From: Siderastrea radians
Taxonomy: Eukaryota > Cnidaria > Anthozoa > Scleractinia > Rhizangiidae
NCBI GenBank assembly: GCA_964017195.1
Contig: OZ024892.1
Span: 7,779,366 to 7,843,365, forward strand
Length of the DNA stretch: 64,000 nucleotides
Direction: 5' to 3'
The notes below the pieces were generated by a model. The model saw only the letters and a program-made list of their open reading frames with translations, had not been told where the DNA came from and did no database searches. Position numbers and translations under genes: made by a program. Shown piece by piece: positions 2,582-46,134 of the stretch (positions are counted from its first letter, which is position 1; the number at the start of each line of letters is the position of its first letter).

Positions 2582-3187
2582 TAATTGTTAATAATGTAAA
2601 CAACAGGCGAAAACGCTTTCACGTGGACGCCTGGACGGAATCACATTGGTGTGTTGTCAAAAATTTTCGTTTTCATCGAAAACGGAACAAAAGTCTTCGT
2701 CGACGACCTTTTTCAGATCGTTTTACCTGTACACAAAAACGATACGAAGCTTTACCTATAAACCTGTGAAATGAAATCGCCTCTACAACAGGTTCCACTC
2801 AGCAGATCCTTTTCAAAAATTCGTTTGGTGTGAATAGAACATGTAGTTAAAAAGAAACGTTTGCGTTTTCAAACAAAACGCATCCTCATTCCTTGTGGAC
2901 GGGGCCTAAAGGGTTACAACTCGTGTAAAGGTGTGTGAATTATGATACTTCGCGTGATCGTTACAAAGGGATGTAAAAGTTAATTTAAGATTAACGAAGG
3001 ATTTAACAACTATATTGCTCCCATTGAATGTTTCAAAAGCCGATATCGAAATTGGCGAAACGAAATCACTTAAGATGTTTTTCGGTCATACTGGCCCTCG
3101 ATACGCTTCATAAATTTTGCATCGCTCGAGTGGCGTTGTGGAAGCGCCATTCTTGTCAGCGACAATTTCAAAAGAAACAAGCCTGAA
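2582..3187. other. Intergenic; element end and 5' flank of zinc-finger pseudogene
   Basis: 2600-2910 is full of 'aaaacg' and 'gttttc' words and ends near a 'ttgtggacggggcctaa' stretch, typical of a TIR-element terminus, but no matching left end was found. 2910-3187 is plain sequence leading into the zinc-finger reading frame. No promoter could be assigned. Confidence 0.35.
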
Positions 3188-4385
3188 ATGGATTTGTCTG
3201 AACTCAAACATTGTGAAAGTTGCAACAAAATAATTCCTTTTAAAAACTTTGAAATTCACAAGGTTAATTGCGCGAGAAACACATCTGCTTCAAATGGGGC
3301 TCATTCTGGCCAAGCAGTGACCGTTAACAAGCAGAAAGTACGTTTTGACAAATTTCGAGCAGCAATCAAAATTACAAGAGAAGATAAAAAAGTGCGGAGT
3401 GCCGACCAGGGCAATCATCGGCCTAACAAATCTACAAAACAGCTTGCTACATGTAGATTCTGTGAAGTTATGTTGCCTGGAGTAATTGTGAGCGAACATG
3501 AAGAATATTGTCGCTCCAAAACTGATATATGCAAGAAGTGCGAGTGTTATGTGATGGTTAAGGAATTTGCACAGCATCTTGAGGATAATGTGAGGACAAA
3601 AACCCGCCCCTGCCGTGTGAATTTTGCGAGAATCTTTTTCCAGCTAACGAGCTTGTGATCCACCAGAACAAGTGTGTCAACAATGAAAGAGGGGAGAACA
3701 GAACTAGTTTGAAAGAAAATATTGATGGAGCAACGAAAACAGAGAGGGACAAGAAGCACGATAGCGAATCGAGACGAGACAAGGAGAAAATGAATGAAGA
3801 GAGACGAGAATTCGCTGAGCTAAACAGGGAGAAGAAAATCAGGGAACGTCCAAATTCACATCGAGAAAGTATCAGCATTGTCGCTTTGCCGTGTGAAGTG
3901 TGCGGAGAGCTGTGCCCTTCCGATAAACTAATGCAACATCAAATACAGTGCCAAAAGGAGAGAGAACGTGTGAGTCAAAGAAATCCGAAAACTGCGCAGC
4001 ACACTTCGCCCTGAGCAAACCAATCTGCGACCAGTAGATACGTCTCCTCGCAAAATGGTGGCACGAGATACATAGAGGTTCAAAGAGGCTACAGCCCAAC
4101 TATAGAATTCGAAGATGATAGTGAATCGCTGGAGGATAAAATAGATATTAGCACTGATTACACTTTAAGAGGCGAACAAAGTTCCAATAATTTCCCCCCG
4201 CCAAGACCAGAAACTTTCCATACCAGTGGTGACGTTGACGTTTCTGGTGTTCGATACATAGAAATCCAACGAAGTTACAGCCCTACGATAGAGTTTGAGG
4301 AGGAAACTGTTCCTGAAATATTCAGCCATAATATGTCGGCATTTTTTCGCGTTCGAGATCCTTGAAGGACGTTCGAACGTAGTTA
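3188..4385 (+). pseudogene. TRAFD1/XAF1-like TRAF-type zinc-finger gene, 5' half, disabled
   Basis: The reading frame starts at ATG 3188 with CESCNKIIPFKNFEIHKVNC, a C2HC finger like the first finger of TRAFD1 (FLN29). It continues with CRFCEVMLP..EHEEYC and CKKCECYVMVKEFAQHLED. Around 3590-3612 the frame shifts by one. The new frame gives PCEFCENLFPANELVIHQNKC, a charged K/E/R-rich linker, and PCEVCGELCPSDKLMQHQIQC. Family members act in innate-immune signalling as negative regulators; that role is family knowledge, not seen here. An in-frame TGA at 4012-4014 precedes two copies of a GxRYIExQRxYSPTIEFE motif (about 4057-4116 and 4246-4305). A second TGA lies at 4363-4365, and a 16.3 kb transposon interrupts the frame at 4385. 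The unbroken exon-like span of ~1.2 kb is compatible with a retroposed copy. Sequencing error could explain one lesion but hardly all of them. Confidence 0.75.
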
Positions 4386-13513: not shown

Positions 13514-16500
13514 GGCAGTCAGTGAAGCCTTTTGCAAACAAAAAATGCTGATCGTTCATGTCTGGCAGATTTTAGTACAAACAGCTCTGTGTTTCATACT
13601 TTTCAAAGTTAAAGGCAATGAACAAGATAAGTGAAAAACAAAAAGCTTAAAGCCAGGAAGAAAGATCCAAAGTCAAGATCTCATTTGAAATCAAGAGAGA
13701 ACCTTTTTGTAAGTGCAACATGCCATGAGAAAGGAATTTCATCCGCCAAGTTCATACATCGCAGTCACAAATCGAATGTGACAAGAGATGAGTGACATTT
13801 TCTGTTTGTTCTAGTATTCACTGTTGGGTTTTCAAAATGTGGTCATTTTTAGGAAACCCACTGCAAAGATGCAGTCATCTTTAGGCAGTCAGTGAAGCCT
13901 ATTGCAAACAAAAAATGCTGATCTTTCATGACTGGCAGATTTTAGTACAAACAGTTCTGTGTTTCATATTTTTCAAAATTAAAAGCAATGAATAAGATAA
14001 GTGAAAAACAATAAGCTTAAAGCCAGGAAGAAATATCCAAAGTCAAGATCTCATTTGAAATCTAGAGAAAAACCTGTTGTAAGTGCAACATGTCAGAAGA
14101 AAGGAATTTCATTAGCCAAGTTCATGCATCGCAGTCACAAATCGAATGTGACAAAAGATGAGTGACATTTTCTGTTTGTTCTAGTATTCACTGTTGGGTT
14201 TTCAAAATGTGGTCATTTTTAGGAAACCCACTGCAAAGATGCAGTCATCTTCCCTTGTAAAAATTTGACCGAGATCTCGGCGAGATCGCGGCAATCTCGC
14301 CGAGATCGGCGAGATCTCGGCGAGATAGCCACGATCTCGGCGACATTTCAAAATTTCGCGCCGAGAAAAGTAGCCCGCGGTGAGATCGCGGCAATCTCGC
14401 CGAGATCGCGCCAAGATCGGCGAGATCTCGGCGAGATAACCACCATCTCGGCGAGATTGCGAAATATCGCGTCGAGATATCTACCCCGCGGCGAGATCGT
14501 AACGCGATCTCGCCGCACCAAACCCGTTCGTGGCGAGATAACCGCGATCTCGGCGAGATATCCAGCGAGAAGTGAGATTGCAACACGATCTCGCCGCGAC
14601 AAACTGGTTCGGCGCGGATAGCCGCGATCTCGGCGGATAGCCGCGATCTCGGCGATTTCATGTCGAGATTTCTACTGTTGCAACGCAGAGACTGTCTCGA
14701 TCTTTGCGAGATTTATCTCATAGAATCTCGATATCGGTAAGATTTCTCTCAGGTTTTACTGCTGCAACTGCCATTGTATTTGTGCAAATCTCCTGACCCT
14801 GTACCCATAGTTTCAAACAAGCGCGACCAGCGATCTATTTCGAGGGTCGGCAAGAATCTGAAATAAATCAGCTCACAAATTAATTTACCGGCTTTTGAGA
14901 TCAAAATAACAACAAGCAGCAACGAGCAGCAACGAGCAAAATAACAACGATCAGAAACGCTGTTTTACATGTGAAGTCATTTGATTTCATCAGACCACTG
15001 ACGTCTATTTGTTGTCACTTACCAATGATGTATGCAGAGGACTTCGTTTGTCATGTCCGTCATCTCTTTGTTGAACTTTCTTTATAAACCACTACGGAAG
15101 AGTTAGGCAAGGATTTTAAAGACAGATACCTGTGACTAATTTGTTGTCGTTCTGAATTTGACTTTTTTCGCTGCTTGCCGGCCATGAGCTTACCTGATAC
15201 CGTAAAGTCGCGCCAAAAAATCCCGCCTTGACTCCCGCCGTTGTGTTAATGGGGCAATGTGATTGGTTGATTCAATCACACCATCGGCGAGCGTAAGCCC
15301 AAAAAAATCGAGAACTTTTCCACAAAACTTAAGCTTACAGAAGTGGGAAATGGCTTCTTTTTGTTGAATGTACAGGGGAAAATTGAAATGTTAAACATGT
15401 TATTTTTTACTACGGAAAACAACATGGTTCTTTCAAGTTTAAAGCAAGAGCTAGAGCGTTTTGGAAGATATACAAGAAACTGTTGCACAACTAAACAAGC
15501 CACACTAAAGGACCTAAAGTGTACTGGGAATGAACTTATATATTATGGACAAAGCTACAGTTGAGGAGTGAACACTCAGGTTAAATGCTTTCAAGACTTT
15601 CAGAACGTTTGTAGTCTACACAGCTTAATCAGTAATGCCGCGATGGAAGCCACCAAATGGGTTTCTTCTCCACCGGGAATCAGTCCTTCGACGAGTTTTG
15701 TAGTTGCCCAAGCATTCAACGTGTGAGACAAAGGTCAGTGAGTTTTACTTTTCTCAGACAACATCATCAGCATGTACAGCTTTTCCTTGCCTTGATTTTT
15801 CCCCTTTTATCTCGTCGGCTGACTGTTGACCTTTATTTTAATTGGTGATGTTGATTTCACTCAAGTAAACTGCGGGTCTTTCACAGAAACATGCTCCTTC
15901 GTGAGAATATTAATTAAGCTTAAAAAAATCTTCGCTTGACTTTCCTGTAAAAATGTGTGGGGATGAGGTATAAATAACCTAACTTACCGGTAACAAATTT
16001 GATATGAGCCAAAACTTCGGCATTCTTTTTGCATGAGTTCAGAAATAAAATTTTCGCCATCTTCCCCAGATTTGCGTAAACAGTCAGGTGACAAGTCTGA
16101 CAAATTTAAGAATTTGCGGCAAGTTGCAGAATCTTATACTGAAAATGGTTCCTTCTTAACTAGTTTTAGATGCAAAACAGTGACAACTCAAATTTTGCGA
16201 TCGAATATTTCACGAGCTTCGCAGTACATGACAAAATAATCTCAAGATTTGCGTGACCACAATTTGGCGAGCAGCCAATTTCTCAGTGCAAGACAAGGAG
16301 ACGCCACAAAAACACTTTATCCAGTCTAATTAGATGTTGTTGTCATTTAGAAGGCCTTTTGTTTTCAATTGAACTATCCAAAATAAAGTACCAAGATAAG
16401 GGAAAATAATAGGATTATTAACTAGATTGATTTATTGGATTGTTAGGTTTATACCAGAACGGAAAATGGTCATCCCTGTTCATAGCTGCATGATCATTCA

Positions 16501-25372: not shown

Positions 25373-26253
25373 ATATATAGATTTAGCCAAGCCTAAAAGC
25401 GGAGCCCCCCTTTTTGTTTTGTCTGTTTTTTTTCTGTTTGTTTGTTTTTTTTGTTTTGTTTTTGCTGGCAGTTATTAATTTGTGAAAATACTCTCATTCA
25501 AGTCATTAAATTAAAAAAAAACAAACAAACAAACAAACAAACAAAAAACCTGCTCCCGCTGAGTGTCGAACCCGGCTCGTCAGCGTGAGATGCCGGTGAC
25601 AAGTCCACTAGGCCATGGGCATTTAACGATAAATCTAAAGTTAATTTTAATACTTATTTCTTTCTTCGTGACAAGCTGCCTATCAGCGTGAAAATGCTGG
25701 TGTTTTTCCTGCAAAATGTGTTCGAAACGCCGTAAAAACCATGGTTGTGGACAGAAAAAAACCAAAAAGCACTAGCTCTGCTATATTTGGCGTCGAAACC
25801 GCTGCGAAAAGCTGTGAACTTAAGCGGTGTACCGACCGAGTTTGAACAGAACCGACGAGGCAAATTTGAACTTTTTGCCTGAACTTTATCGCCTAATTTC
25901 TTTCGCCTAAATTGAACTTTTCCCCTTCCACCAAAAAGATAACTGAGTATTCCTTGAACTTTTTTTTCCATTAACAAATTTGTTTTTGACTTTTGTTGTT
26001 TTTGCTTGTTTTGCTACAACGCGGGTCAACATGCGATTTCGCGCCAAAAACACACGGGATTCAGCACAGGTTATATCCCGTGTATGAAGAGTATTGGTAT
26101 CCCTGTGGTGCGGACGGACGGACGTACGGACGGACGGATGTACGGACGGACGGTCACGTGACTATTACGTCACTACCAAAATTTTTTGGCTTGACAGGTT
26201 ACCAAATTTCCTTAGCAATGGAGCTCCGCTGACGCGCTAGCGCGCTGGCTCCG
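25373..26253 (-). mobile_element. 881-bp retroposon-like insertion, CTA target duplication
   Basis: Comparison with unit 1 (gactggtctattatgaaacg) shows an insertion flanked by CTA at 25370-25372 and 26254-26256. There are no terminal inverted repeats. On the minus strand it begins CGGAGCCAGCGCGCTAGCGC, carries a GGAC/CCGT-rich block (26105-26155) and includes a tRNA-like segment. The minus-strand orientation is inferred from the tRNA-like boxes. The frame at 25993-26232 is a repeat translation. Confidence 0.6.
25546..25622 (-). ncRNA. tRNA-like segment with A and B boxes (SINE-type promoter)
   Basis: On the minus strand the A box TGGCCTAGTGGAC (25603-25615) and the B-box-like GGGTTCGACAC (25563-25573) are spaced as in a tRNA. 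A T6 run (25546-25551 on the complement) follows, as a Pol III terminator would. The acceptor and T-stem do not pair well, so this is a tRNA-derived relic or SINE head rather than a working tRNA gene. Confidence 0.45.
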
Positions 26254-26271
26254 CTATTATGAAACGAGACG

Positions 26272-26439
26272 CTATTCACAATACTCATATCCACGTGCGA
26301 AGTCAAAATAAGATCCAAAACGACTGATTAACACTCAAAGTGATATTCTCCGGAGGATTACGTAATAGGGGGTATAAAACTGATGAGATAACAAGTTTTC
26401 TTGCTCAGTTTCTCTTCCAGCGGACAGAGTGAAGAACGA
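26272..26439 (+). repeat. Split direct repeat A1
   Basis: Runs from CTATTCACAATACTC to GAAGAACGA. It matches A2 (33378-33551) throughout, except that A2 has a 6-bp insertion in the run GGATTA..CGTAATAG. It contains the element's presumed promoter. Confidence 0.92.
26373..26412 (+). promoter_or_regulatory. TATA box and initiator-like motif in repeat A1
   Basis: TATAAAA lies at 26373-26379. About 30 bp downstream, a TCAGTTTC stretch (about 26405) could serve as an initiator. The leader ATG follows at 26489. The same motif is present in A2 near 33484. Promoter role inferred from position. Confidence 0.5.
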
Positions 26440-26488
26440 TTTTTTCCCCGAGAACCTCGAACCGCACGACTTTTACGTACTTTTGGAG

Positions 26489-26731
26489 ATGGCAGCGAGA
26501 CGTGTTCAATTTCCTCAAGCCCCACAAGACGCTCCTCCGAATGCTGATCGTGGTGACCGACAGGATGCTCAGCAGCAGGCAGACGGTCAGGATGTCCCTC
26601 GTGGTGATGGTAACGCTCAGCGTGTTGGTCAGGCTGATGGACAGAATCTTCCAGCGCCAAATGTTCAGGCACCGCCGGCCCAACAACCTGGACCTGTACA
26701 AAATGCTGATGCGCAAGGTGGAGAACTCGAG
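26489..26731 (+). CDS. Leader exon (81 codons) of the DIRS-order element
   Basis: The ATG at 26489 has G at -3 and G at +4. The product, MAARRVQFPQAPQDAPP.., is rich in Q, D, P, A and G with no fold I recognise, and it ends GGELE. The frame runs on into intron sequence, but a splice donor (GAG|GTGAAT) follows codon 81, so the exon ends in phase 0. All three downstream ORFs start in phase 0 at strong acceptors, so this exon can be joined in frame to any of them: Gag at 28607, RT-RNase H at 29470, recombinase at 31809. None of the downstream exons begins with an ATG at its acceptor, which supports a shared spliced leader. The disordered composition resembles N-terminal Gag segments. Splicing is predicted, not observed. 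Confidence 0.7.
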
Positions 26732-26779
26732 GTGAATATTGTTTTTATATGCTTTTGTTTGCATTTAAGAGGTTTTAAT

Positions 26780-28115
26780 ATCCCAGACTTGCGGGTGCCC
26801 GTTGTCAGGGTTTATTGTGTCCTAAATTGTGGGCGAGGTTCCGCCGAGGTTTTTGTGGGATGAAAGCATTGTCGCAGATTTGTGAACTGCTTGTTATCAA
26901 GTTTATTGTGCCTTGAATTGTGAGCGAGGTTCCGCCACGTTCTTTGTAAGACAGAAGCATTGTCGCAGATTTGTGAAATGCTTGTTATCAAGGTTTATTG
27001 TGTCTTGAATTGTGAGCGAGGTTTCGCTAAGTTCTTTGTAAGACAAAGCATTGTCGCAGATTTGTGAAATGCTTGTTATCAAAGTTTATTGTGTCTTGAA
27101 TTGTGAGCGAGGTTCCGCCACGTTCTTGGTAAGACAGAAGCATTGTCGCAGATTTGTGAAATGCTTGTTATCAAGGTTTATTGTGTCTTGAATTGTGAGC
27201 GAGGTTTCGCCAAGTTCTTTGTAAGACAAAGCATTGTCGCAGATTTGTGAAATGCTTGTTATCAAAGTTTATTGTGTCTTGAATTGTGAGCGAGGTTCCG
27301 CCACGTTCTTGGTAAGACAGAAGCATTGTCGCAGATTTGTGAAATGCTTGTTATCAAGGTTTATTGTGTCTTGAATTGTGAGCGAGGTTTCGCCAAGTTC
27401 TTTGTAAGACAAAAGCATTGTCGCAGATTTGTGAAATGCTTGTTATCAAAGTTTATTGTGTCTTGAATTGCGAGCGAGGTTTCGCCGAGGTTTTTTGTGG
27501 GATGACAGCATTGTCGCAGATTTGTGAAGTGCCTTGTTGTCAAAGTTATTGTGTCTTGAATTGTGAGCGAGGTTTCACCGAGGTTTTTGTGGGATGACAG
27601 CATTGTCGCAGATTTGTGAAGTGCCTTGTTATCAAAGTTATTGTGTCTTGAATGGCGCGCGAGGTTTCGCCGAGGTTTTTGTGGGATGACAGCATTGTCG
27701 CAGATTTGTGAAGTGCCTTGTTATCAAAGGTATTGTGTCTTGAATTGCGAGCGAGGTTTGCCGAGGTTTTTGTGGGATGACAGCATTGTCGCAGATTTGT
27801 CAAGTGCCTTGTTATCAAAGTTATTGCGTCTTGAATTGCGAGCGAGGTTTCGCCAAGCTTTTTGTAAGATTAAGGCACTGTTGCAGATTTGTGAAATGCC
27901 TGTTACCAGAGTTTATTATGTCTTGAATTGTGAGCGAGGTTTCGCCAAGCCTTTTATAAGACGAAGGCATTGTCGCAGATTTGTGAAATGCTTGTTAGCA
28001 GAGTTAATTGTGTCATGGATTGTGAGCGAGGTTTCGCCAAGTTTCGCATTGTTCCAGATTTGCGAATGTTTGTTCTCAAGATTTGTTGTGTCGAGCTATG
28101 GGCGAGGCTTCGCTG
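26780..28115 (+). repeat. 92-bp minisatellite inside the leader intron
   Basis: About 15 units share 'gtgagcgaggtttcgcc' and 'gcattgtcgcagatttgtgaaatgc'. For example, tgagcgagg falls at 26921, 27013 and 27104. Later units drift. The long frames across it (27626-28285 on +, 27361-27818 on -) are translations of the repeat. It lies wholly in the intron between 26732 and 28606. Confidence 0.93.
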
Positions 28116-28606
28116 ACAATTTGTATGACAAAAGCATGGTTGTCGTTTGCAAGTTTATTTCTCGAGTCCATTGTGACTTCAGCTGCGGGCGAGATCTCGG
28201 ATTCGGTTGTGGGTATAAACTACCCGGCGGAGAGTCGTACCCGAGTTATACAAGTGTTTATTTTACAGTCATCTATGTGTTTTGAAAGGCTGAGTTGTAG
28301 TCTGCAAATGTTGTGGTAGTTGTTGATTTGACATCAGGGCTGTGCAATGTTTTTGTTGGGACACCCCTTTTTCTGTCAGGTGTTAATTGTTGAGTATTTC
28401 CTCGTTGGCTAGGTTTAGACATGTGTCTTTGGTGGCAGGCGATTTGCAGAAGTAAAAGAAAATGATAATAAGAGATTTAACTGAATTAATTGTGTTTTGG
28501 AAGCACTTTGTTAATTTGCTATACATCAATTACCATTGGAGGTGATATTATAGCCTTGAGTTGGTTAGCATCTGATAGCCTGTTTGTTTTGCCCCTTACT
28601 ATTTAG

Positions 28607-29134
28607 AATTTGAAAGAAAAGTACCAGGAACTTAAGCAGGCAATGGACGTGTTGACAAAGTCTTCGGTGGACAACCTGCTAAAACGTATCATGAACCTGG
28701 CATCGCGCCCTATAGTTGAGTTTAATAGGTTCGAAGCCATGGAACTGGTCGAGGGACTGAAGAATGCAGTCCATGATACCCACCATGAGAAGGAGGGATA
28801 CTACAACCTTGTCCATGAGACTGTGCGGGGGAAATTAGAGCTGCCTAACGATCAGTTTCGTAACTATATTTTCCCATTGCTTGGAGACAAGGACCATGAA
28901 AAGGTGCTTGATGTCATCTCGAAAGTAGAGAAGTCAAACCGACGACAGTATGGGAGAAAATCTAATTCTGAAGCCCGTGGAAATAGGGGAAATAGCTCGC
29001 TTTCTGGTCCAGGTCTCCGTTGCTTTTACTGTAATAAGCTGGGCCACATTAGAGCGCGTTGTCTTAAGAGAAAAAGGGATATGCGTACACTGTCTGATAG
29101 TGGTAATGGTATTTCTGCCGATGTTAGAAAGTAG
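28607..29134 (+). CDS. Gag-like exon with CCHC zinc knuckle
   Basis: The acceptor ..ccccttactatttag ends at 28606. The frame opens at once in phase 0 with NLKEKYQELKQAMDVL and stops at 29132-29134. The first ~100 residues are helical and charged (KSSVDNLLKRIMNL.., VEGLKNAVHDTHHEKEGYYN). A basic, Ser/Gly-rich linker follows, then CFYCNKLGHIRARC, a C-X2-C-X4-H-X4-C zinc knuckle typical of retroelement nucleocapsids, and a basic tail (LKRKRD). Joined to the leader it gives about 256 residues. Its likely role is to package the element RNA. It lies directly upstream of the RT exon with a 335-bp gap that reads as intron. Confidence 0.8.
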   Translation, partial: NLKEKYQELKQAMDVLTKSSVDNLLKRIMNLASRPIVEFNRFEAMELVEGLKNAVHDTHHEKEGYYNLVHETVRGKLELPNDQFRNYIFPLLGDKDHEKVLDVISKVEKSNRRQYGRKSNSEARGNRGNSSLSGPGLRCFYCNKLGHIRARCLKRKRDMRTLSDSGNGISADVRK

Positions 29135-29469
29135 TGCTTTGGCTTTTCAATTTAATACGCTTATTATGCTAAATGAGATTAGCGTCTGGTTGACTTCTGA
29201 TGTAAGGAACATGAAATAAAGTGCTACACTGTATTTTCTTTTCTTGTTGACACTCATGAATTTGTGATCTCTTGTCACTTATTGTAGTCATCATAATGTG
29301 GGTCATTAATAAGTCATAGGGTTTTGACGGCTTTGAAAAAGAGTATCTAAATCAACTCCCCCGGTTACACTGGGTCAAAGCTGTCATCTCTCTGCTGACT
29401 TGGGGTTCGTCGCCATAGGTGTTTCTCATCTTCCTCATTTGGTTCTCTCTCTTTAATTGTCTTTGTTAG

Positions 29470-31728
29470 ACAAACGCGACAACCTTTGGCTGGGAATGGG
29501 AACGAGATGTTGAATTTGACGCCCGTGTCTCTTATGTGCAAACACTTCCTCAGAGGTCAGTTCATTGGGTTGACTGGCGAGGGAACCCCATCAGCGGAGG
29601 GATGACAGCGAACCTGGGAATGGAATCGACTGTTCGTAGTGTAGCTCATGGAGAGACCCTTGGCAATGTAGAAGATTTGTTATTTAGAGACCCAGGTTAT
29701 TTTAGAGCAGGCGAGCTGCATAACCATCTAGATTCGTGGAGAGCAATTATTGGGGATTTTCCTTCCCCTCAGGAGTCTGAGATCCTCCAATTAATTGAGA
29801 GCAAAGTTTCAATCTTTCCATACTTCCGGAGTTTCTCTGGCTCTTTTAAGGGTGAGACGTATGAGTCTGATCACCCTCCAAGGAAGGCGTTTTTGAATAA
29901 TGCGTCATGTAAACCCTTTGTGCAATTTATTCAACGAACATTGCTCGAAAGGATGGAAAATGGGGCGGTATCTTTAGTTGGTAAAGTGGGTGTGGTGGAG
30001 CCCCCTTATTTAGTTCTCCCTTTAACAGTGGAGCCATCGAAACCACGCCTCTGTCATGACGCTCGCTTTCTAAACTTATGGATGACAGACAAGCCCTTTA
30101 GCTTGGACAGTATAATGGATTTACCGCGTTATGTTTCACGTGACTCTTTTCAAACAGTCTTAGACGACAAATCTGGTTATGACCATATCCTATTGACAAA
30201 TGACAGTCGTACGTTTTTTGGAATTCAGTGGGGCGGATGGTACTTCACATATAACACATTACCCTTTGGATGGAAGATCTCTCCTTTTATTTATCACAGC
30301 ACAGGCCTGGTTGCAACCAATTTCTTTCGGTCACTGAAAATACCATGTCTTTTGTACATCGATGATCGCCATAATGGGCAACTCCAGGTCCCTTTAAACA
30401 GCGGAGCTTATTTGGATATCCCAGATGATGATGGGAAAAGATTCGCAGCAGCTAAATCCGCGTTATTTATTGTGGCCTACTATTTGATAAGCCTTGGTTA
30501 TTTTTTGGGTTTGAAGAAATCCATTTTGAAACCCGAGAAAGTTGTGCCCTATTTGGGCTTCTTGGCAGATTCATCCCTTGAAGTATTTCATCTTATCCCA
30601 GAGAAGAAATTAAAGTTTCTGCGGTTGATCCGCGAAGTGTTGCAGGCTGAGGAGGTATCTGTTAAGACACTTCAGCGCTTAATGGGAAAATGTGTGTCTT
30701 TTTCTAAGGCAGTCCCGGCGGCGCAGCTCTTCACCAGAGAAATGAATGCAGCCATTTCTAGAGGTTTACGCACTTCTAAACCCGTGCGTCTTTGCGGTGG
30801 TTTAAGAGAGGAAGTTTCTCATTGGATGTTCCTGGAGGAGTGGGATGATCCTTTACCCTGGAGGGATGAGCGACACTCACGAGTTTCGATAGCTACTGAT
30901 GCTTCGAATACTGGTTGGGGAGGGACCCTGGTCTCTCCGTTTTCCCAAGAGGTCTCAGATTATTGGTCACGAGAGGAACAGTCCTTGGATATCTCCACGA
31001 AGGAAGCGGTTGCTGTAGAAAGAGCGTTGTTAGCTTTCCAGGATCAAGTGAAAAATTCTTGGGTGGATGTGAGCGTAGATAACCAGGCTGTCGTTCACTC
31101 TTGGAATAATTATGGAGGGCGGAGCAGGTCACTTAATAATGCTATGAAGAGGTTATTCTTTACAACATCTGCTCTTAATGTTTCTTTGCATCTTTCTTAT
31201 ATTCCTAGCGCTGAAAATCCAGCTGATTTGCCTTCCCGCCGTTTGTCTGCAATGGACAGTCAGTTGTGTCCTGCACTGTGGGAGGTTGTCCAGTGTCATT
31301 TTGGGGGCCCAGATGGTCACACTTGTGACCTTATGTCTCTTGATTCCAATGCGATGAGGGACAAATCTGGAAGAATTTTGCCGCATTTTACATTGTTCCC
31401 TTCGCCCGGGTCATCTGGAGTCAATTTCTTTTCCCAAAACCTTTCCAGTGGGGAGACGTTTTTGGAGAGGCCATATGTGTTTCCTCCCCTGGTGTTAGTT
31501 GGCCCTGTGTTACGACATCTCAAGAACCACAGAAGGTCTTGCACTGTGGTTGTTCTAGATGTTTACCCCCGAAAATACTGGTGGCCATTGGTTCAGTGCT
31601 ATTCGGTTAAGTCATTGAAGCTTGCCAGAAAAGGTGATACTGGAGCTTTACTCATACCTTCAAAGAAAGGATGGGTTCCCCACTCTGGGATTCCAGGAGA
31701 TTTGGTGGCCTTTGCTGTTAAATTTTGA
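29470..31728 (+). CDS. Reverse transcriptase-RNase H exon of the DIRS-order element
   Basis: The frame opens right after the acceptor ..tctttgttag (TAG at 29467-29469 is in frame) and runs 752 codons to TGA at 31726. RT motifs: KPRLCHDARFLN, then LDDKSGYDHI (30160-30189, first catalytic Asp), LPFGWKISPF, and YIDD (30355-30366, catalytic Asp pair). The RNase H domain has ATDAS (Asp 30898), KEAVAVERAL (Glu 31003), VSVDNQAVVHSW (Asp 31078) and SAENPADLPSR (Asp 31225), so the D-E-D-D set is complete. A C-terminal segment (FPPLVLVGPVLRHL.., DVYPRKYWWPL) resembles the tail after RNase H in DIRS-type polyproteins. It copies element RNA into DNA. The first ATG in frame is 29602, inside the domain lead-in, so a spliced leader start is more likely. 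Confidence 0.9.
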   Translation, partial: TNATTFGWEWERDVEFDARVSYVQTLPQRSVHWVDWRGNPISGGMTANLGMESTVRSVAHGETLGNVEDLLFRDPGYFRAGELHNHLDSWRAIIGDFPSPQESEILQLIESKVSIFPYFRSFSGSFKGETYESDHPPRKAFLNNASCKPFVQFIQRTLLERMENGAVSLVGKVGVVEPPYLVLPLTVEPSKPRLCHDARFLNLWMTDKPFSLDSIMDLPRYVSRDSFQTVLDDKSGYDHILLTNDSRTFFGIQWGGWYFTYNTLPFGWKISPFIYHSTGLVATNFFRSLKIPCLLYIDDRHNGQLQVPLNSGAYLDIPDDDGKRFAAAKSALFIVAYYLISLGYFLGLKKSILKPEKVVPYLGFLADSSLEVFHLIPEKKLKFLRLIREVLQAEEVSVKTLQRLMGKCVSFSKAVPAAQLFTREMNAAISRGLRTSKPVRLCGGLREEVSHWMFLEEWDDPLPWRDERHSRVSIATDASNTGWGGTLVSPFSQEVSDYWSREEQSLDISTKEAVAVERALLAFQDQVKNSWVDVSVDNQAVVHSWNNYGGRSRSLNNAMKRLFFTTSALNVSLHLSYIPSAENPADLPSRRLSAMDSQLCPALWEVVQCHFGGPDGHTCDLMSLDSNAMRDKSGRILPHFTLFPSPGSSGVNFFSQNLSSGETFLERPYVFPPLVLVGPVLRHLKNHRRSCTVVVLDVYPRKYWWPLVQCYSVKSLKLARKGDTGALLIPSKKGWVPHSGIPGDLVAFAVKF

Positions 31729-31808
31729 TTTGCTGGGTAAATAACGACCTAGTATTTCCAACCATTAAACTGGTGGGTCGACTGACTTTTGGTCCTTCTT
31801 CGTTCTAG

Positions 31809-33164
31809 GAGCTTCCAGCTGTTGTGGCTAAACTGTTTGTTTTGTCAGTGCGGTGCCCGGTTTGCGCTCATGCCAATGACCAGGATTTTCGTTTCTGTCA
31901 AAGATGCGGATATAAGAGGAAGCAGTTGAGTGTGCGGCCGGTGAACGCAGTTGAAGTTGATTTGGATGGGATTGACAAGCGTTTTCAGCAACTGACTAAT
32001 TTTGACCGTGCGACTAGTTATTCTAAGCAGAAGGATTCTCTTCAAAAAGAGTTAGAGAATTTCTTGGCGGCTCTTCCTGGCAAACCCGGCATATCTACAG
32101 TAACTCCTCGGGACTTGTACCGCTTTCTCATTTACAAAGATAGACATGGGAAAACGCAAGTACATCGTAATGGTTGTAGTTTTCTGGGTCAGCGAGGTAC
32201 TCATTCGTGTGGTTGCCCGGTTAGACTTTCATATAAGACGGTGGACTCCTATATTGGAAAGCTACGCGCTATTTTTCATGCCAGTGGTAGGGACGGCGAG
32301 TGGGATACACGACTTGGTCTAGGAAATCCGGCTGCTGATAGGTTACTGAAGGATTATTTGCGTCTTGTTACTGCCGAACAGTTACAAGCGAGGGTTACTC
32401 CGAAACAAGCTACTCCATTTTTTGTAGACAAATTGACGCAACTTTCTTTGCACTTACAGACGAAACTGACCACGGAAGCTTTATCGCCAATGCAGCGTTT
32501 CATTGTAGCTCGAGATCAAGCTTATTTTAAATGCGTCTTTTTCAGTGGTGACCGTCCAGCCGATTTGGGACGGGTTAAAGTCCAAGAGATCTTGCGTTTC
32601 CCTAACGATGATGGTCTTCTCTTTAACCATGTATGGGGGAAGACCTTAAGGGATGGGGATGAAAATGTTTTTGGTATCAGGCGAAATCCTCAAGTGGTAA
32701 TTTGCCCCATTAAAGGTATAGAGGATTACATCGCAGTTACGCGACGGCTCAAAATAGATCTGACTACGGGTTATTTATTCCGTCCGACGAACCCTGAAGG
32801 AGGAATTGTGGACTCCCCGTTTGGGTCCTCAACTGCAGAAGCTCGTCTTAAGGTGTATCTGAATGAAATGGGGGCAGACGATGGGGAGACCCTTCATGGT
32901 TTCCGGGCTGGTTGTGCTATTACGCTGGCATTGACAGGCGCAGACATTGCAGAGATTATGGACCATGTGGGCTGGACAAGGCGTCATACCGCCCACTATT
33001 ATCTTCAATTGGCTAAAGTTTTGAATCCCTCTGGTGCTTCAGCAAGATTGGCGTCGAATGAAATCTCGGAAGTGATCAATCCGTGGCAGGACGTTAATGA
33101 ACTGAAGCGTTTCGTTTGTGCTTTTCCTACTGAACAATCTAGTAAAAGAGCCTTGTCAGATTGA
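31809..33164 (+). CDS. Tyrosine recombinase exon with N-terminal zinc fingers
   Basis: The acceptor ..ccttcttcgttctag ends at 31808. The frame then opens in phase 0 with ELPAVVAKLFVL and runs 451 codons to 33164. CPVCAHANDQDFRFCQRC is a CX2C..CX2C zinc ribbon, and a second Cys/His cluster (HRNGC..HSCGC) follows near 32164-32220. Catalytic residues: Arg in SGDRPADLGRVK (32553), His and Arg in HGFR (32895 and 32904), His in DHVGW (32964) and Tyr in HTAHYY (32997-33002). It integrates the circular DNA product by site-specific strand exchange without target duplication. It is on the same strand as and downstream of RT, as in Ngaro and PAT. The adjacent B1-A2 junction is its expected substrate. 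Confidence 0.9.
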   Translation, partial: ELPAVVAKLFVLSVRCPVCAHANDQDFRFCQRCGYKRKQLSVRPVNAVEVDLDGIDKRFQQLTNFDRATSYSKQKDSLQKELENFLAALPGKPGISTVTPRDLYRFLIYKDRHGKTQVHRNGCSFLGQRGTHSCGCPVRLSYKTVDSYIGKLRAIFHASGRDGEWDTRLGLGNPAADRLLKDYLRLVTAEQLQARVTPKQATPFFVDKLTQLSLHLQTKLTTEALSPMQRFIVARDQAYFKCVFFSGDRPADLGRVKVQEILRFPNDDGLLFNHVWGKTLRDGDENVFGIRRNPQVVICPIKGIEDYIAVTRRLKIDLTTGYLFRPTNPEGGIVDSPFGSSTAEARLKVYLNEMGADDGETLHGFRAGCAITLALTGADIAEIMDHVGWTRRHTAHYYLQLAKVLNPSGASARLASNEISEVINPWQDVNELKRFVCAFPTEQSSKRALSD

Positions 33165-33313
33165 TGTCTATTTAAGTGTACTGAATCAAATTCAACGATC
33201 ATTTTGTTGAGTTTTGAGATTTGGGGGAGTAAGTTTTGGGGTTGGGTTATGAATTTGGATGGTTTTTGTGTTATTGGGGTGTATAGTTTGGAGTGAGTTG
33301 CCATTTGGGGCGC

Positions 33314-33385
33314 GATCAATATTCTTTTCCCATATCTTATTAACTGAGCATGAATAGGAGGATTGTTGAATAGAATACTATTCAC
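33314..33385 (+). repeat. Split direct repeat B1
   Basis: Identical over 72 bp to B2 (33638-33709), from GATCAATATTC to TACTATTCAC. Its last 8 bp (CTATTCAC) are also the first 8 bp of A2, so the B1-A2 junction is the sealed circle junction. Confidence 0.92.
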
Positions 33386-33551
33386 AATACTCATATCCAC
33401 GTGCGAAGTCAAAATAAGATCCAAAACGACTGATTAACACTCAAAGTGATATTCTCCGGAGGATTATAATTACGTAATAGGGGGTATAAAACTGATGAGA
33501 TAACAAGTTTTCTTGCTCAGTTTCTCTTCCAGCGGACAGAGTGAAGAACGA
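33378..33551 (+). repeat. Split direct repeat A2
   Basis: Matches A1, with one 6-bp insertion. After A2, positions 33568-33589 are the reverse complement of 26450-26472 just inside A1 (one base missing), forming an internal complementary pair. Confidence 0.92.
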
Positions 33552-33637
33552 CCCACCCGCCCACCCCAAGTCGTGCGGTTCGGGTTCTCCTAACTCTTTC
33601 CCTACTGTTTTTCTTTTGGTTCTCACTCAGCCCGCTG

Positions 33638-33709
33638 GATCAATATTCTTTTCCCATATCTTATTAACTGAGCATGAATAGGAGGATTGTTGAATAGAAT
33701 ACTATTCAC
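33638..33709 (+). repeat. Split direct repeat B2 and right end of the element
   Basis: Identical to B1. The right flank AAAGTACAAAACAGCG follows directly, matching the uninterrupted target at about 24015 and the diverged copy near 35110. Confidence 0.92.
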
Positions 33710-35205
33710 AAAGTACAAAACAGCGACTACAGCTAAGAATACAGCGAGTATAACAGAAACTTTCGTTCTTTTATACTTGTATAAATACAGAAACGCTAAT
33801 TTTAACTTACCTTGTACATTTGTAACTCGAATCAAAACAGTATTATCTTAAGATATAGGTGATTGCAATGTGACATTTTCAGCTTTTGCTTACGTGTGTG
33901 ACAGTTTCGCTTTTGTTTAATTACCGAAGCTCGTGTGCTCGTGTTAGATGCGCAAATGACTTTTATGCCTTTATTCGGCTAGCTAGATTATTAGCGAATT
34001 CAATTGAGATTTAAATAAACTTGAGAAAAATTTTTCTTCAGTTCAGGGTATTTTAGTGATATTTTCAGTTTAAAAACTTGAGTTGCGAAGCTTTGGGATG
34101 CGTCTAATAGCCGAGTGCGTCTTATAACTGAAAAAGGACCTATATATGAAGTGTCCGGTCAGATACGAGGTGTGACCGACCTAAAATGTATTTGGCCGGT
34201 CATCTGGACCGGTGAATGTCCAAAAGTTATTTCCAGCCCTGTAAACCATATTTTATATTGTCCAGTTGTAAACTCTTTGACTTTCTGACCTTAAATTTGA
34301 AAGCAAAACACTAGTACTATAGAAAAATACTTCACTCCTTAAAAAACAGGTTGAAGAGTTACAGAGTTCAACGAGCCCCAATGCCTTGTTACGCTTTTTG
34401 TATTGATATCTACTATCTTCAGTGTGTCATCTCATAATTAAAACCGTCGTTTCAATGACCAGGAGAATGGAGATCACAAAGTTTTACACTAAGCTAAAAA
34501 CCCATATTTAACTTCACATTTCTCAATGTATCAATACATAGGTATCAATGAATAGGTAGACGACCAAAATTTTTAAACTTTTTCTTTTGTTTTTTGTTTT
34601 ATTATTTTTTACTTTAACATTTAGATAGAAGACTTTGAAGGAAATGTTAAATCAGTCTTTCATTAATGTAGGATCCGATTATAGTTTCTTCCAATTCAAT
34701 TGGAATTATAATTCAGTTTTTCCGGTGATCAGCGAGTCACATATTAGGTGGCTATACAGAACGACAAAAAATAAGCCAAATGGGTTAATATGTAGAAATT
34801 TCATCTGATATAAAGCTAGCTATCTTTTCGCTGATGATCAGCGGCGAGGTAGTTCTCTCTGTATATGGAAGAACGGTTGCTTAATCATGCTATAAGGAAA
34901 CAAAGGCTGAATAACGCCAGCTTTGCAAATGAAACAAAAAGAAACAATTCGAATTACAAAGAAGTTTACATTTCGCCAAAGCTAAATCTATATTCAAAGA
35001 AATCTTATCCTATAGAAAAACTAGATTTTATTCAGGAATAAGGAAAAGAATAGCAGCTAAAGATAAAACTAAAACGACTGGTCTATTATGAAACGGGACG
35101 CTATTCAGAAAGTACAATACAGCGACTACAGCTAAGAATCCTTCTACCAGAAACCTTCGTTCTTTTATGCTTGTATAAATACAGGGACGCTAGTTTGACT
35201 TACGG

Positions 35206-44193: not shown

Positions 44194-44741
44194 TAGCCTG
44201 CGAATACAGCCGCCTCTCATTCACGTCCCGCAACGAAGAGCGAAACGGGAAGAGAGACGTCTGCGATTCACCGCCAAAAATTCCATACTGATGACGTAAA
44301 TCTGTCCAGAATCCGGACAGGAACGCTGATTGGACGAGCGGACATTTTTGCATAATTAGCTCTATAATTATTCAGTGTTGTGATGTGAGAAATTCAGAAC
44401 CAATATGGCCGCTAATAGTGAGAATTCGTCTCGTCCTTCCTTGGAAAGTTTTCGCCTCTGCGTACAATCTATCTGTCCGAAGTTCAATGTTTCATCGTTA
44501 AAAGAAAGTCAGTTTCAGGCTCTTTATAGTTTTATCTGCGGTGAAGAGGTTTTTGTTAATCTGCCGACTGGATCAGGCAAGTTGCTAATATTTCAACTCG
44601 CGCCACTCGTACACACGTGGATGCATTATCGACGGGAGATTTACGTCATCAGTATGGAATTTTTGGCGGCGAATCGCAGACGTCTCTCTTCCCGTTTCGC
44701 TCTTCGGGACGTGAATGAGAGGCGGCTGTATTCGCAGGCTA
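44194..44741 (+). mobile_element. 548-bp Mutator-like element carrying a helicase fragment (9-bp duplication)
   Basis: Left TIR 44194-44303 and right TIR 44637-44741 match over ~105 bp with one 5-bp indel. Both begin TAGCCTGCGAATACAGCCGC, read inward. ATAGAGGAA is duplicated exactly at 44185-44193 and 44742-44750. A 9-bp duplication with long TIRs is the signature of Mutator-like elements. Between the TIRs lies the start of a RecQ-like gene rather than a transposase, the arrangement called Pack-MULE in plants. Confidence 0.8.
44405..44636 (+). pseudogene. RecQ-like DNA helicase, N-terminal fragment captured in a TIR element
   Basis: From ATG 44405 the frame reads MAANSENSSRPSLESFRLCV.., then FNVSSLKESQFQALYSF (RecQ motif 0, with the conserved Gln) and VNLPTGSGKLLIFQLAPLV (Walker A). 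The last residue of the Walker A box is Leu (GSGKL) where Ser or Thr normally binds Mg2+, so ATP hydrolysis would be impaired. No motif Ia onward is present. The frame runs on into the right TIR to 44812 and has no helicase sequence beyond ~76 residues. RecQ proteins unwind DNA during repair. This copy cannot do so alone. Confidence 0.75.
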
Positions 44742-44750
44742 ATAGAGGAA

Positions 44751-46134
44751 CTCTTAACAAAGATATCTCCCTTTTACCTATGCGTTATTTATCGTTATTT
44801 CCAAACCACTGACAGTTGGGCAGCTAAAAGTGGCAAGGTGCAAGTTCAACTAAAGAAGATTGTATTTTGGTACGTTTTATTGGACTAGGTATAGTTACCA
44901 TGGCAACACAGCTGGTAGTAAACCAGCATTAAATAATGGGTTTGATTTATTTTCAGAAAATCCAGTCGTTAGATTTTTTCCATCATTTGTCTCTAGAAAA
45001 CTCAGAAAAATACTGGCCTATTGACTTTGGTCTCGTAAAATTTTGACAGAGATATCTTCTGTTATTTTGTGTTTTGCATTTTAACGTTTTCTGAACATGT
45101 CCTCTGTCAGATTTCAATTTTTGTTTGCAAGCGAGCTAAGCGTGTTCCGAACTATTATTCTACCAAATTTGATGAAATTCTACTGAGCGATTCCGTAGAA
45201 ATCAGTGCATTTCCACTAAATCGTACAGTCACAATTTTCTGGTTAACTGCGCATGCGCTGCATTTGACAGGATTATTGATCTTTTCTCGATCCATACAAA
45301 CAATCCCAGAAAGGCAGGGTATTTTCCAAGAGTATTACCTTTAATACATTGAAAAACAAACGTTTTTGACACATAACAAACTGTTTGATTGTTAAGACGG
45401 AAAAAACGCTTGCACAATCTTCACTGAACAAAATGAAATGATCGCTGTACAGGCGCCAACAGGCCACATGTTTGTTTTTCTCAAAGCCTTGTGTGCGTGC
45501 GCTTATTCACGTCAGCAGTACAAATCGTAGAGTGCGCGCAAGCTGTTTTCAGAAACCTTAAAGTATTGTTTTTTCGGTGCAATGAACCTTAAAAAGAGTA
45601 TACAGGTTTGAAATACATCTCTCTAATTGACACTTTGTCTAATAATTATTTCCTGTTCAGAAGTTCTAAGAAAAAAGTTTTAAAAAATTGAATGAAGGAA
45701 AACTGGCTAATTTTTGAGGTTCATTGCACAGTCATGGCATTTATGTACAAATATGTTAGAGTTGGTTTGATACTTTTCCAACCGTGCATTAGTGAGTTAT
45801 CGTTGTTACGTGAGCATCACTTTTTCTAACTTAAGACGCTAGTTTATCATTAACTGTTGTGACATGTGACCTGAAAAGACTCATATTGATGTTAGGGCGT
45901 GAAGCCCTATAAAGTGATGGTAGAAGTTTCCCACGAAGTTCTCCTCTAAAAAAGTTCATCTTTTAGGGTACCATTTTACCTTAAAACAGTCAGGGTATGC
46001 TCCTTTTATATTAACGGCTCTTTCTTCCAGCTGTTGAAGAATTTTCACAGTCGAGGGCAAAGTTAAACCTCGGGCCTACAAGCAAAGTCACACCCCACCC
46101 TATTAGGGTTCCAAAGCAAAGCAGTTACATAACA
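44751..46134. other. Non-coding
   Basis: The frame at 45069-45344 shows no recognised domain. No repeat or RNA gene can be supported. Confidence 0.35.

Follow-up and report, generated by a model that had tools for sequence, protein, structure and literature searches.

A DIRS-order retrotransposon of the coral Siderastrea radians with a leader exon and three predicted alternative terminal exons

DIRS1-type retroposons with an ALOG domain have been described from marine animals, among them Nematostella and Acropora, with the animal copies judged to be inactivated (PMC3537659). Retrotransposons of the PAT and Ngaro types combine terminal repeats in the order A1-B1-A2-B2 with a tyrosine recombinase (YR), a reverse transcriptase-RNase H (RT-RH) and separate open reading frames (ORFs), and the available text of the sources describes frame overlap or frameshifting and not splicing of the element (PMC6681497, PMC3266345, PMC3783388). 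Spliced retrotransposon RNAs are known from elsewhere, namely the gag RNAs of copia and BARE1 and the cerv mRNA of Cer1 (PMC3735527, PMC10309623). Here we analyzed a 64,000-nt stretch of the genome of the coral Siderastrea radians (assembly GCA_964017195.1, contig OZ024892.1, positions 7,779,366 to 7,843,365, forward strand; hereafter the window, with positions counted from its first letter), in which a DIRS-order retrotransposon spans 26272 to about 33711. The element shares the repeat order, the YR, the RT-RH and the separate ORFs with PAT and Ngaro, and its coding regions are probably best explained by one leader exon that is spliced to three alternative terminal exons.

This arrangement had been proposed in an earlier note made from the letters alone, with a leader at 26489-26731, a donor at 26731/26732, acceptors ending at 28606, 29469 and 31808, and ORFs of 175, 752 and 451 codons that open in phase 0 without an ATG right after an in-frame TAG. 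These coordinates and frames were found to be correct. The predicted features are as follows, with a slash marking an exon boundary:

26489 to 26731, + strand: leader exon of 81 codons with an ATG start, an ORF ending ..GGELE in phase 0, resembling leaders in four other families
26732 to 26737, + strand: 5' splice donor gtgaat; leader end GAG/GTGAAT, boundary 26731/26732
28604 to 28606, + strand: 3' acceptor 1 (TAG), gag; rank 5 of 443 AGs; TAG or CAG at the matching place in 6 of 6 families
28607 to 29134, + strand: gag terminal exon, 175 codons and stop, with a CCHC zinc knuckle
29467 to 29469, + strand: 3' acceptor 2 (TAG), RT; rank 8 of 443 AGs; present in 13 of 13 loci
29470 to 31728, + strand: RT-RNase H terminal exon, 752 codons and stop, with a YIDD motif (by eye)
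31806 to 31808, + strand: 3' acceptor 3 (TAG), recombinase; rank 2 of 443 AGs; 10 of 10 placeable loci, 3 dropped
31809 to 33164, + strand: tyrosine recombinase terminal exon, 451 codons and stop, with zinc ribbon, ALOG and catalytic domains

The gag, RT and recombinase frames each begin in phase 0 immediately after a pyrimidine-rich, in-frame TAG and without an ATG. Splice sites were scored over 26440-33164 with coarse matrices not trained on this species; on this scale the donor was rank 2 of 495 GTs, and the probability that three random AGs would all fall within the top 8 is about 4e-6 by simple arithmetic. Unspliced reading from the leader ATG yields the leader with an intron run-on only, 124 residues in all (26489-26863). 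A search of the 805-Mb assembly found at least 24 long copies of the element, the window's included, with 95–100% identity (24 of 280 candidates scored). In the 23 other copies that were fetched, mostly 96–99% identical per segment, the acceptor AG is kept in 23 of 23 at each of the three acceptors, and of the 20 copies in which the donor region is still present, 19 keep the GT. The window copy has open frames, and a full-length RT frame is kept in 4 of the 23 others. In a within-family selection test, dN/dS-like ratios (non-synonymous to synonymous substitution) were mostly 0.6–1.1, with one value of 1.6 resting on five changes. The copies are thus young and evolving near-neutrally, so that retention of the splice sites among them is weak evidence and by itself no sign of selection.

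The decisive evidence came from other families of the same genome, which an RT search recovered down to 49% identity (compared range 49–70% RT identity). Long loci were read for L032 (63%), L033 (70%) and L034 (49%) and 5' regions for L053 with L055 (50%) and for L054 (62%), together with nine pairs of small windows. Every exon start that was placed, i.e. 6/6 for gag, 13/13 for RT and 10/10 for the recombinase, lies in phase 0 behind a YAG (Y, pyrimidine), with acceptor tracts of 61–100% pyrimidine compared to 50% for the element. The placed acceptors comprise 21 TAG and 8 CAG, and since a CAG closes no frame, the kept feature is the splice site and not the stop. A function of the in-frame TAG as a stop was considered and is ruled out by the CAG found in its place at 8 of 29 acceptors. 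The proposal of one leader and three acceptors is thus partly supported: its layout and phase are conserved, while the in-frame TAG that it noted is true of the window and incidental across families, not a designed feature. The leader was found in 5/6 families (the window's, L032, L033, L034 and L055), always ending LE/GT in phase 0 and with the donor context GAG/GTG or GAG/GTA in all five. These leaders are 53–96 codons long, start with MA (in L055 this start was picked by likeness, an earlier in-frame Met being present) and appear rich in Ala, Pro and Gln; no leader of L054 was found in the DNA fetched for that locus. Donor, acceptors and phase are accordingly kept in families down to 49–50% protein identity, and even at that distance no conserved start codons were found in the related elements; the earlier note had named both unconserved splice sites and conserved start codons as observations that would speak against it. 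Database proteins give a similar picture: of 12 recombinases that reach past the exon start, 8 show hydrophobic, seemingly pyrimidine-coded residues followed by Q directly ahead of it, and the remaining four comprise three joined gene models and the deviating P0091. Comparable read-through examples for gag and RT were seen by eye, with P0122 ambiguous.

The predicted intron contains a tandem array:

26810 to 28044, + strand: intronic tandem array, 92-nt unit repeated 13.5 times, most units with the small inverted repeat GCGA-GGTT-TCGC

Intron length ranges from 938 to 1974 nt among 20 copies of the window's family. Other families carry intronic arrays of different sequence, with units of about 31 nt (L032), 43–46 nt (L033), 50 nt (L034) and 45 nt (L053), whereas no tandem array was found in the L054 intron. 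As the array would be present solely in unspliced RNA, it is proposed as a mark of genomic RNA. Packaging signals of retroviruses sit downstream of the splice donor, and the arrays suggest a candidate role of this kind, in which an intronic hairpin array would mark the unspliced genome, e.g. for packaging. The chances are about even, however, that the arrays are nothing more than minisatellites or act as enhancers at the DNA level, without any RNA signal: tandem arrays form readily, and dimeric proteins may bind inverted repeats in DNA. In the window the hairpin is weak, its outer pair being non-standard in 13 of 17 units, and strict 5-bp hairpin counts did not exceed shuffles in the window (4 vs a shuffle mean of 2.6) or L034 (1 vs 3.2). 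They did so in L032 (12 vs 1.1), L033 (13 vs 3.5) and L053 (26 vs 3.5), and also in the array-less L054 (11 vs 3.0). Against a minisatellite or enhancer origin, hairpin-bearing units occur in 5/6 of the introns examined (the exception being L054), with GGCGA-GGTT-TCGCC and GGCAA-GGTT-TTGCC in L033, GGTGA-NNNN-TCACC in L032, GUGGU-ACG-GCCAC in L034 and GCGGG-12 nt-CCCGC in L053, and pairs are swapped from C-G to U-A between families and from G-C to A-U inside L033. Covariation was assessed by five measures on 29 distinct 14-mers from the window, L032 and L033, which were gathered by likeness to the hairpin consensus so that pairing is favoured, in comparison with 500 shuffles. In this set 83.4% of cells pair (86.2% without three poorly pairing 14-mers, 26 of 29 used) and 12 cells carry a change on either side of the pair, 8 of which trace to a single between-family difference; these two measures and the covariation score were reached by 0 of 500 shuffles, whereas 227 of 500 reached the number of doubly changed pairs and 242 of 500 that of pair types, so that neither of these is unusual.

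Two of the three terminal exons are followed by poly(A) signals:

29215 to 29220, + strand: AATAAA poly(A) signal after gag; 6 of 6 families have this hexamer between gag and RT
31764 to 31769, + strand: poly(A)-signal variant ATTAAA behind RT; 10 of 10 loci have AATAAA or ATTAAA between RT and recombinase

Under a first-order model of the gap, the chance of an AATAAA between gag and RT is 0.04 to 0.22 per family. The RT-recombinase gap holds AATAAA or ATTAAA in all 10 loci (AATAAA in 8; per-locus chance 0.05 to 0.51), one such hexamer standing 30–75 nt upstream of the acceptor; in all these counts the L053 gap is covered in part and the loci are related. With poly(A) signals after gag and RT, each of the two has the look of a self-contained terminal exon, and the RT poly(A) site may also use the U-rich tract of the recombinase acceptor as its downstream element. 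This organization bears on serial splicing of leader, gag, RT and recombinase into one polyprotein mRNA, which we regard as very unlikely. Some gene models of other anthozoans do fuse RT sequence to a recombinase start (P0013, P0016 and P0094), but every ORF of the coral element has its own stop, a poly(A) signal stands behind gag and RT, and the window has no phase-0 GT above 3 bits inside either of these exons. The RT moreover ends in GDLVAF in the window, ADLWAF in L032 and LWAFRV in L034, with no donor visibly kept.

The stretch that precedes the first Met of each frame is coding and conserved, and no start Met is conserved. In the window the first Met stands at codon 13 of gag, 45 of RT and 228 of the recombinase, and its position varies between families (45/76/14/33 in RT, 228/67/232 in the recombinase); the gag Met13 is found in several families and replaced by L, I or V in others. 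Between families, protein change stays below silent change: RT codons 1–44 have a dN of 0.41–0.84 and a dS of 1.34–1.43 or saturated, and recombinase codons 1–227 a dN of 0.23–0.43 with saturated dS. In an AlphaFold model, the blocks covering RT residues 11–40, ahead of the first Met, average 86–93 in the predicted local distance difference test (pLDDT), and several solved RTs align from RT residue 25–35 onward, others from 57–79. The zinc ribbon (13–36) and the ALOG domain (67–187) of the recombinase both lie N-terminal to Met228. Translation of the ORFs from unspliced RNA, by internal initiation at a downstream AUG or at non-AUG codons, would suit the gag Met13 of several families and the lack of spliced RNA in the protein and genome searches; it is nevertheless hardly to be expected given the conservation before the first Met and a recombinase Met that follows two domains, and it leaves the conserved leader, the donor and the pyrimidine-rich YAGs unexplained. 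Trans-splicing is known in cnidarians (Hydra), and acceptors alone would be enough if the 5' exon were supplied from outside, as a trans-spliced leader or host exon with the element's leader ORF unrelated, yet this is very unlikely because an ATG leader ending LE/GT in phase 0 lies within the element in 5/6 families and matches the phase of the acceptors.

Several observations weigh against one leader with three alternative terminal exons. The agreement of 29/29 exon starts is partly by construction, since starts were set at a phase-0 AG at the onset of homology. The loci are also related to one another and represent about seven lineages as judged by identity. The L034 gag and L047 RT starts have competing AGs, and three of the nine small recombinase windows (L040, L042 and L046) were without an intact recombinase start and were dropped. 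RT codons 1–44 evolve faster than the remaining RT. Behind its RT the window has ATTAAA alone, a hexamer that it also has inside the exons of RT and recombinase, and the stretch 33165-33720 that follows the recombinase contains neither AATAAA nor ATTAAA. Among the protein matches listed (120 of 434, 63 of 63 and 120 of 426), no Gag, RT or recombinase was fused to a leader, although leaders of other families would be hard to recognize; coverage of the fused queries was at most 68% among 63 of 63 matches and at most 90%, equal to the RT part alone, among the best 120 of 426. The N-termini inspected were the longest-extended of 92 alignable RT matches and, by pattern, 120 recombinases. Finally, a genome search allowing up to 3 mismatches, and run with no positive control, found no processed copy with a leader-gag or leader-RT junction, which fits a genome made from unspliced RNA and fits a lack of splicing as well.

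The encoded proteins identify the element as a DIRS-order retrotransposon of the ALOG-recombinase type, with a tyrosine recombinase in place of a DDE integrase. The recombinase matches Pfam ALOG (1.7e-21) and Phage_integrase (7e-07), both above cut-off, and its R249, H363 and R366 are invariant in a 25-row alignment, Y398 being nearly so. Several zinc-ribbon families match around residues 13–36, each below its own cut-off, and the L032 recombinase likewise has a zinc ribbon and an ALOG domain. The RT matches RVT_1 (2.5e-06) and RT_RNaseH (0.0038), both under the curated cut-offs; its model has a mean pLDDT of 90.6, and RT/RH fold matches were the RTs of cauliflower mosaic virus (CaMV), foamy virus, Moloney murine leukemia virus (MMLV) and Ty3. 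ALOG-type retroposons are also described with an inactive N6-adenine methylase domain; in the coral element, the sole match for the C-terminal 191 residues of the RT was a sub-threshold viral polymerase, and the fold comparison barely reached residues 593–752. Named database proteins that matched come from Porites, Oculina, Exaiptasia and Actinostola, among others.

The ends carry split direct repeats, arranged A1, genes, B1, A2, B2 as in the PAT/Ngaro type:

26272 to 26439, + strand: repeat A1 (left end, promoter side), 168 nt, recurring as A2; left boundary common to other copies
26373 to 26379, + strand: TATA box TATAAAA within A1, from the sequence
26450 to 26472, + strand: 5' untranslated region (UTR) stretch complementary to 33568-33589, one base short
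33314 to 33387, + strand: repeat B1, overlapping the first bases of A2
33378 to 33551, + strand: repeat A2, second copy of A1
33568 to 33589, + strand: 3' stretch between A2 and B2, complementary to 26450-26472
33638 to 33711, + strand: repeat B2 (right end); alignments of most other copies stop at 33704-33711

DIRS1 proper is defined by inverted terminal repeats, whereas the ends here are direct, with a single short internal complementary pair. One direct-repeat pair each was seen in L032 and L033, and none in the stretch of L034 DNA that was compared. In family L033 a comparable block carries ATAAATA, and after it stands the TTCTTGCTCAGTTTC that also lies downstream of the window's TATA box; the 14-mer core GAACCGCACGACTT of the complementary 5' UTR stretch recurs in the 5' UTR of L033. 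The complementarity of 26450-26472 and 33568-33589 could pair the genome ends or serve in priming. An Rfam search of 25800-34200 gave no match at E up to 0.1, and a tRNA scan of the window with a bacterial setting gave none.

Comparison between families supports the leader with its donor, the three acceptors and their phase, a coding stretch ahead of the first Met and the poly(A) signals, together with hairpins in several families. From these a model of expression can be drawn. RNA polymerase II would start in A1, whose TATA box suggests a single promoter driving the whole element. The primary RNA would have a single donor at the end of the leader exon, which brings the sole start codon, and three acceptors would compete, each opening a terminal exon, so that choice of acceptor 1, 2 or 3 would give leader-Gag, leader-RT-RNase H or leader-recombinase. 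The poly(A) signals after gag and RT would allow the first two to end as short, complete mRNAs, and the genome would be the RNA that escapes both splicing and early polyadenylation and alone retains the intron with its hairpin array. Splicing itself, the choice of acceptor, the use of the poly(A) signals and the functions of the hairpins and of the shared N-terminus are what we infer from these features.

Outside the element, a short CGGA repeat lies beyond its left end (26111-26153). By eye, an ORF at 44384-44812 resembles the start of a RecQ-type helicase, two overlapping Cys/His-rich ORFs at 3074-4014 resemble zinc-finger repeats, and repetitive low-complexity ORFs on both strands at 14223-14712 resemble a minisatellite. 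In family L054, a fragment upstream of the element's gag (L054:534-1049) resembles another reverse transcriptase by eye, perhaps from a nested insertion.

Of the described systems, the ALOG retroposons are closest in content, with a zinc-knuckle Gag, an RT-RNase H and a recombinase with zinc ribbon and ALOG domain in common, and with direct repeats at the ends that are about as long (159 bp in Ectocarpus); words beginning with intron or splice are absent from the main text of that report (PMC3537659). Unlike the animal copies described there, the frames in the window are open, and missing N-termini would be explained by the shared leader exon. No spliced DIRS-order element was found in the available text of PMC3266345, PMC4157794, PMC6681497, PMC8547959, PMC9210276, PMC3783388 and PMC12477816, and none was recognized from titles and the starts of abstracts in the literature searched, outside which most subscription papers lie. 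In that literature, the shared-leader splicing layout was thus not found described for DIRS-order elements; the poly(A) signals and the intronic hairpin arrays are features beyond the earlier note.

The shared leader would explain why such recombinases seem to lack a start, and we offer an annotation rule that looks for a leader ending LE/GT together with YAG-opened frames. Retroelements commonly fix the Gag:Pol ratio by frameshifting, readthrough or proteolysis; if the layout is used as proposed, host choice of acceptor and poly(A) site would fix the ratio of three proteins at once. The layout also makes it testable how translation and the packaging of the genome are kept apart in a DIRS-order element. 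A tentative extension, less likely than not, is a whole anthozoan YR lineage that makes all its proteins from spliced mRNAs only, with one leader exon and three alternative terminal exons, of which at least gag and RT have poly(A) signals of their own. In such a lineage a common N-terminal tag could draw the enzymes into Gag particles and so dispense with a Gag-Pol fusion, and an intron hairpin array would mark the genome.

The element differs from copia, BARE1 and Cer1, which are long terminal repeat (LTR) retrotransposons in which splicing yields an extra product, the unspliced RNA is the genome, and Gag and Pol are readable from unspliced RNA, as far as the sources at hand describe them (PMC3735527, PMC10309623). 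In the coral element, in contrast, splicing is needed to read Gag, RT or recombinase from the leader start, and the three would have the leader in common. Retroviruses have one major donor, several acceptors and a genome that is marked downstream of the donor, and foamy viruses make Pol from a spliced RNA. Compared to retroviruses, the coral element has another integrase class, no env was seen, and neither Gag nor Gag-Pol would come from genomic RNA. If the tentative reading of a lineage with a hairpin-marked genome is true, the retroviral logic of a donor followed by a downstream packaging signal would have been recreated independently there.

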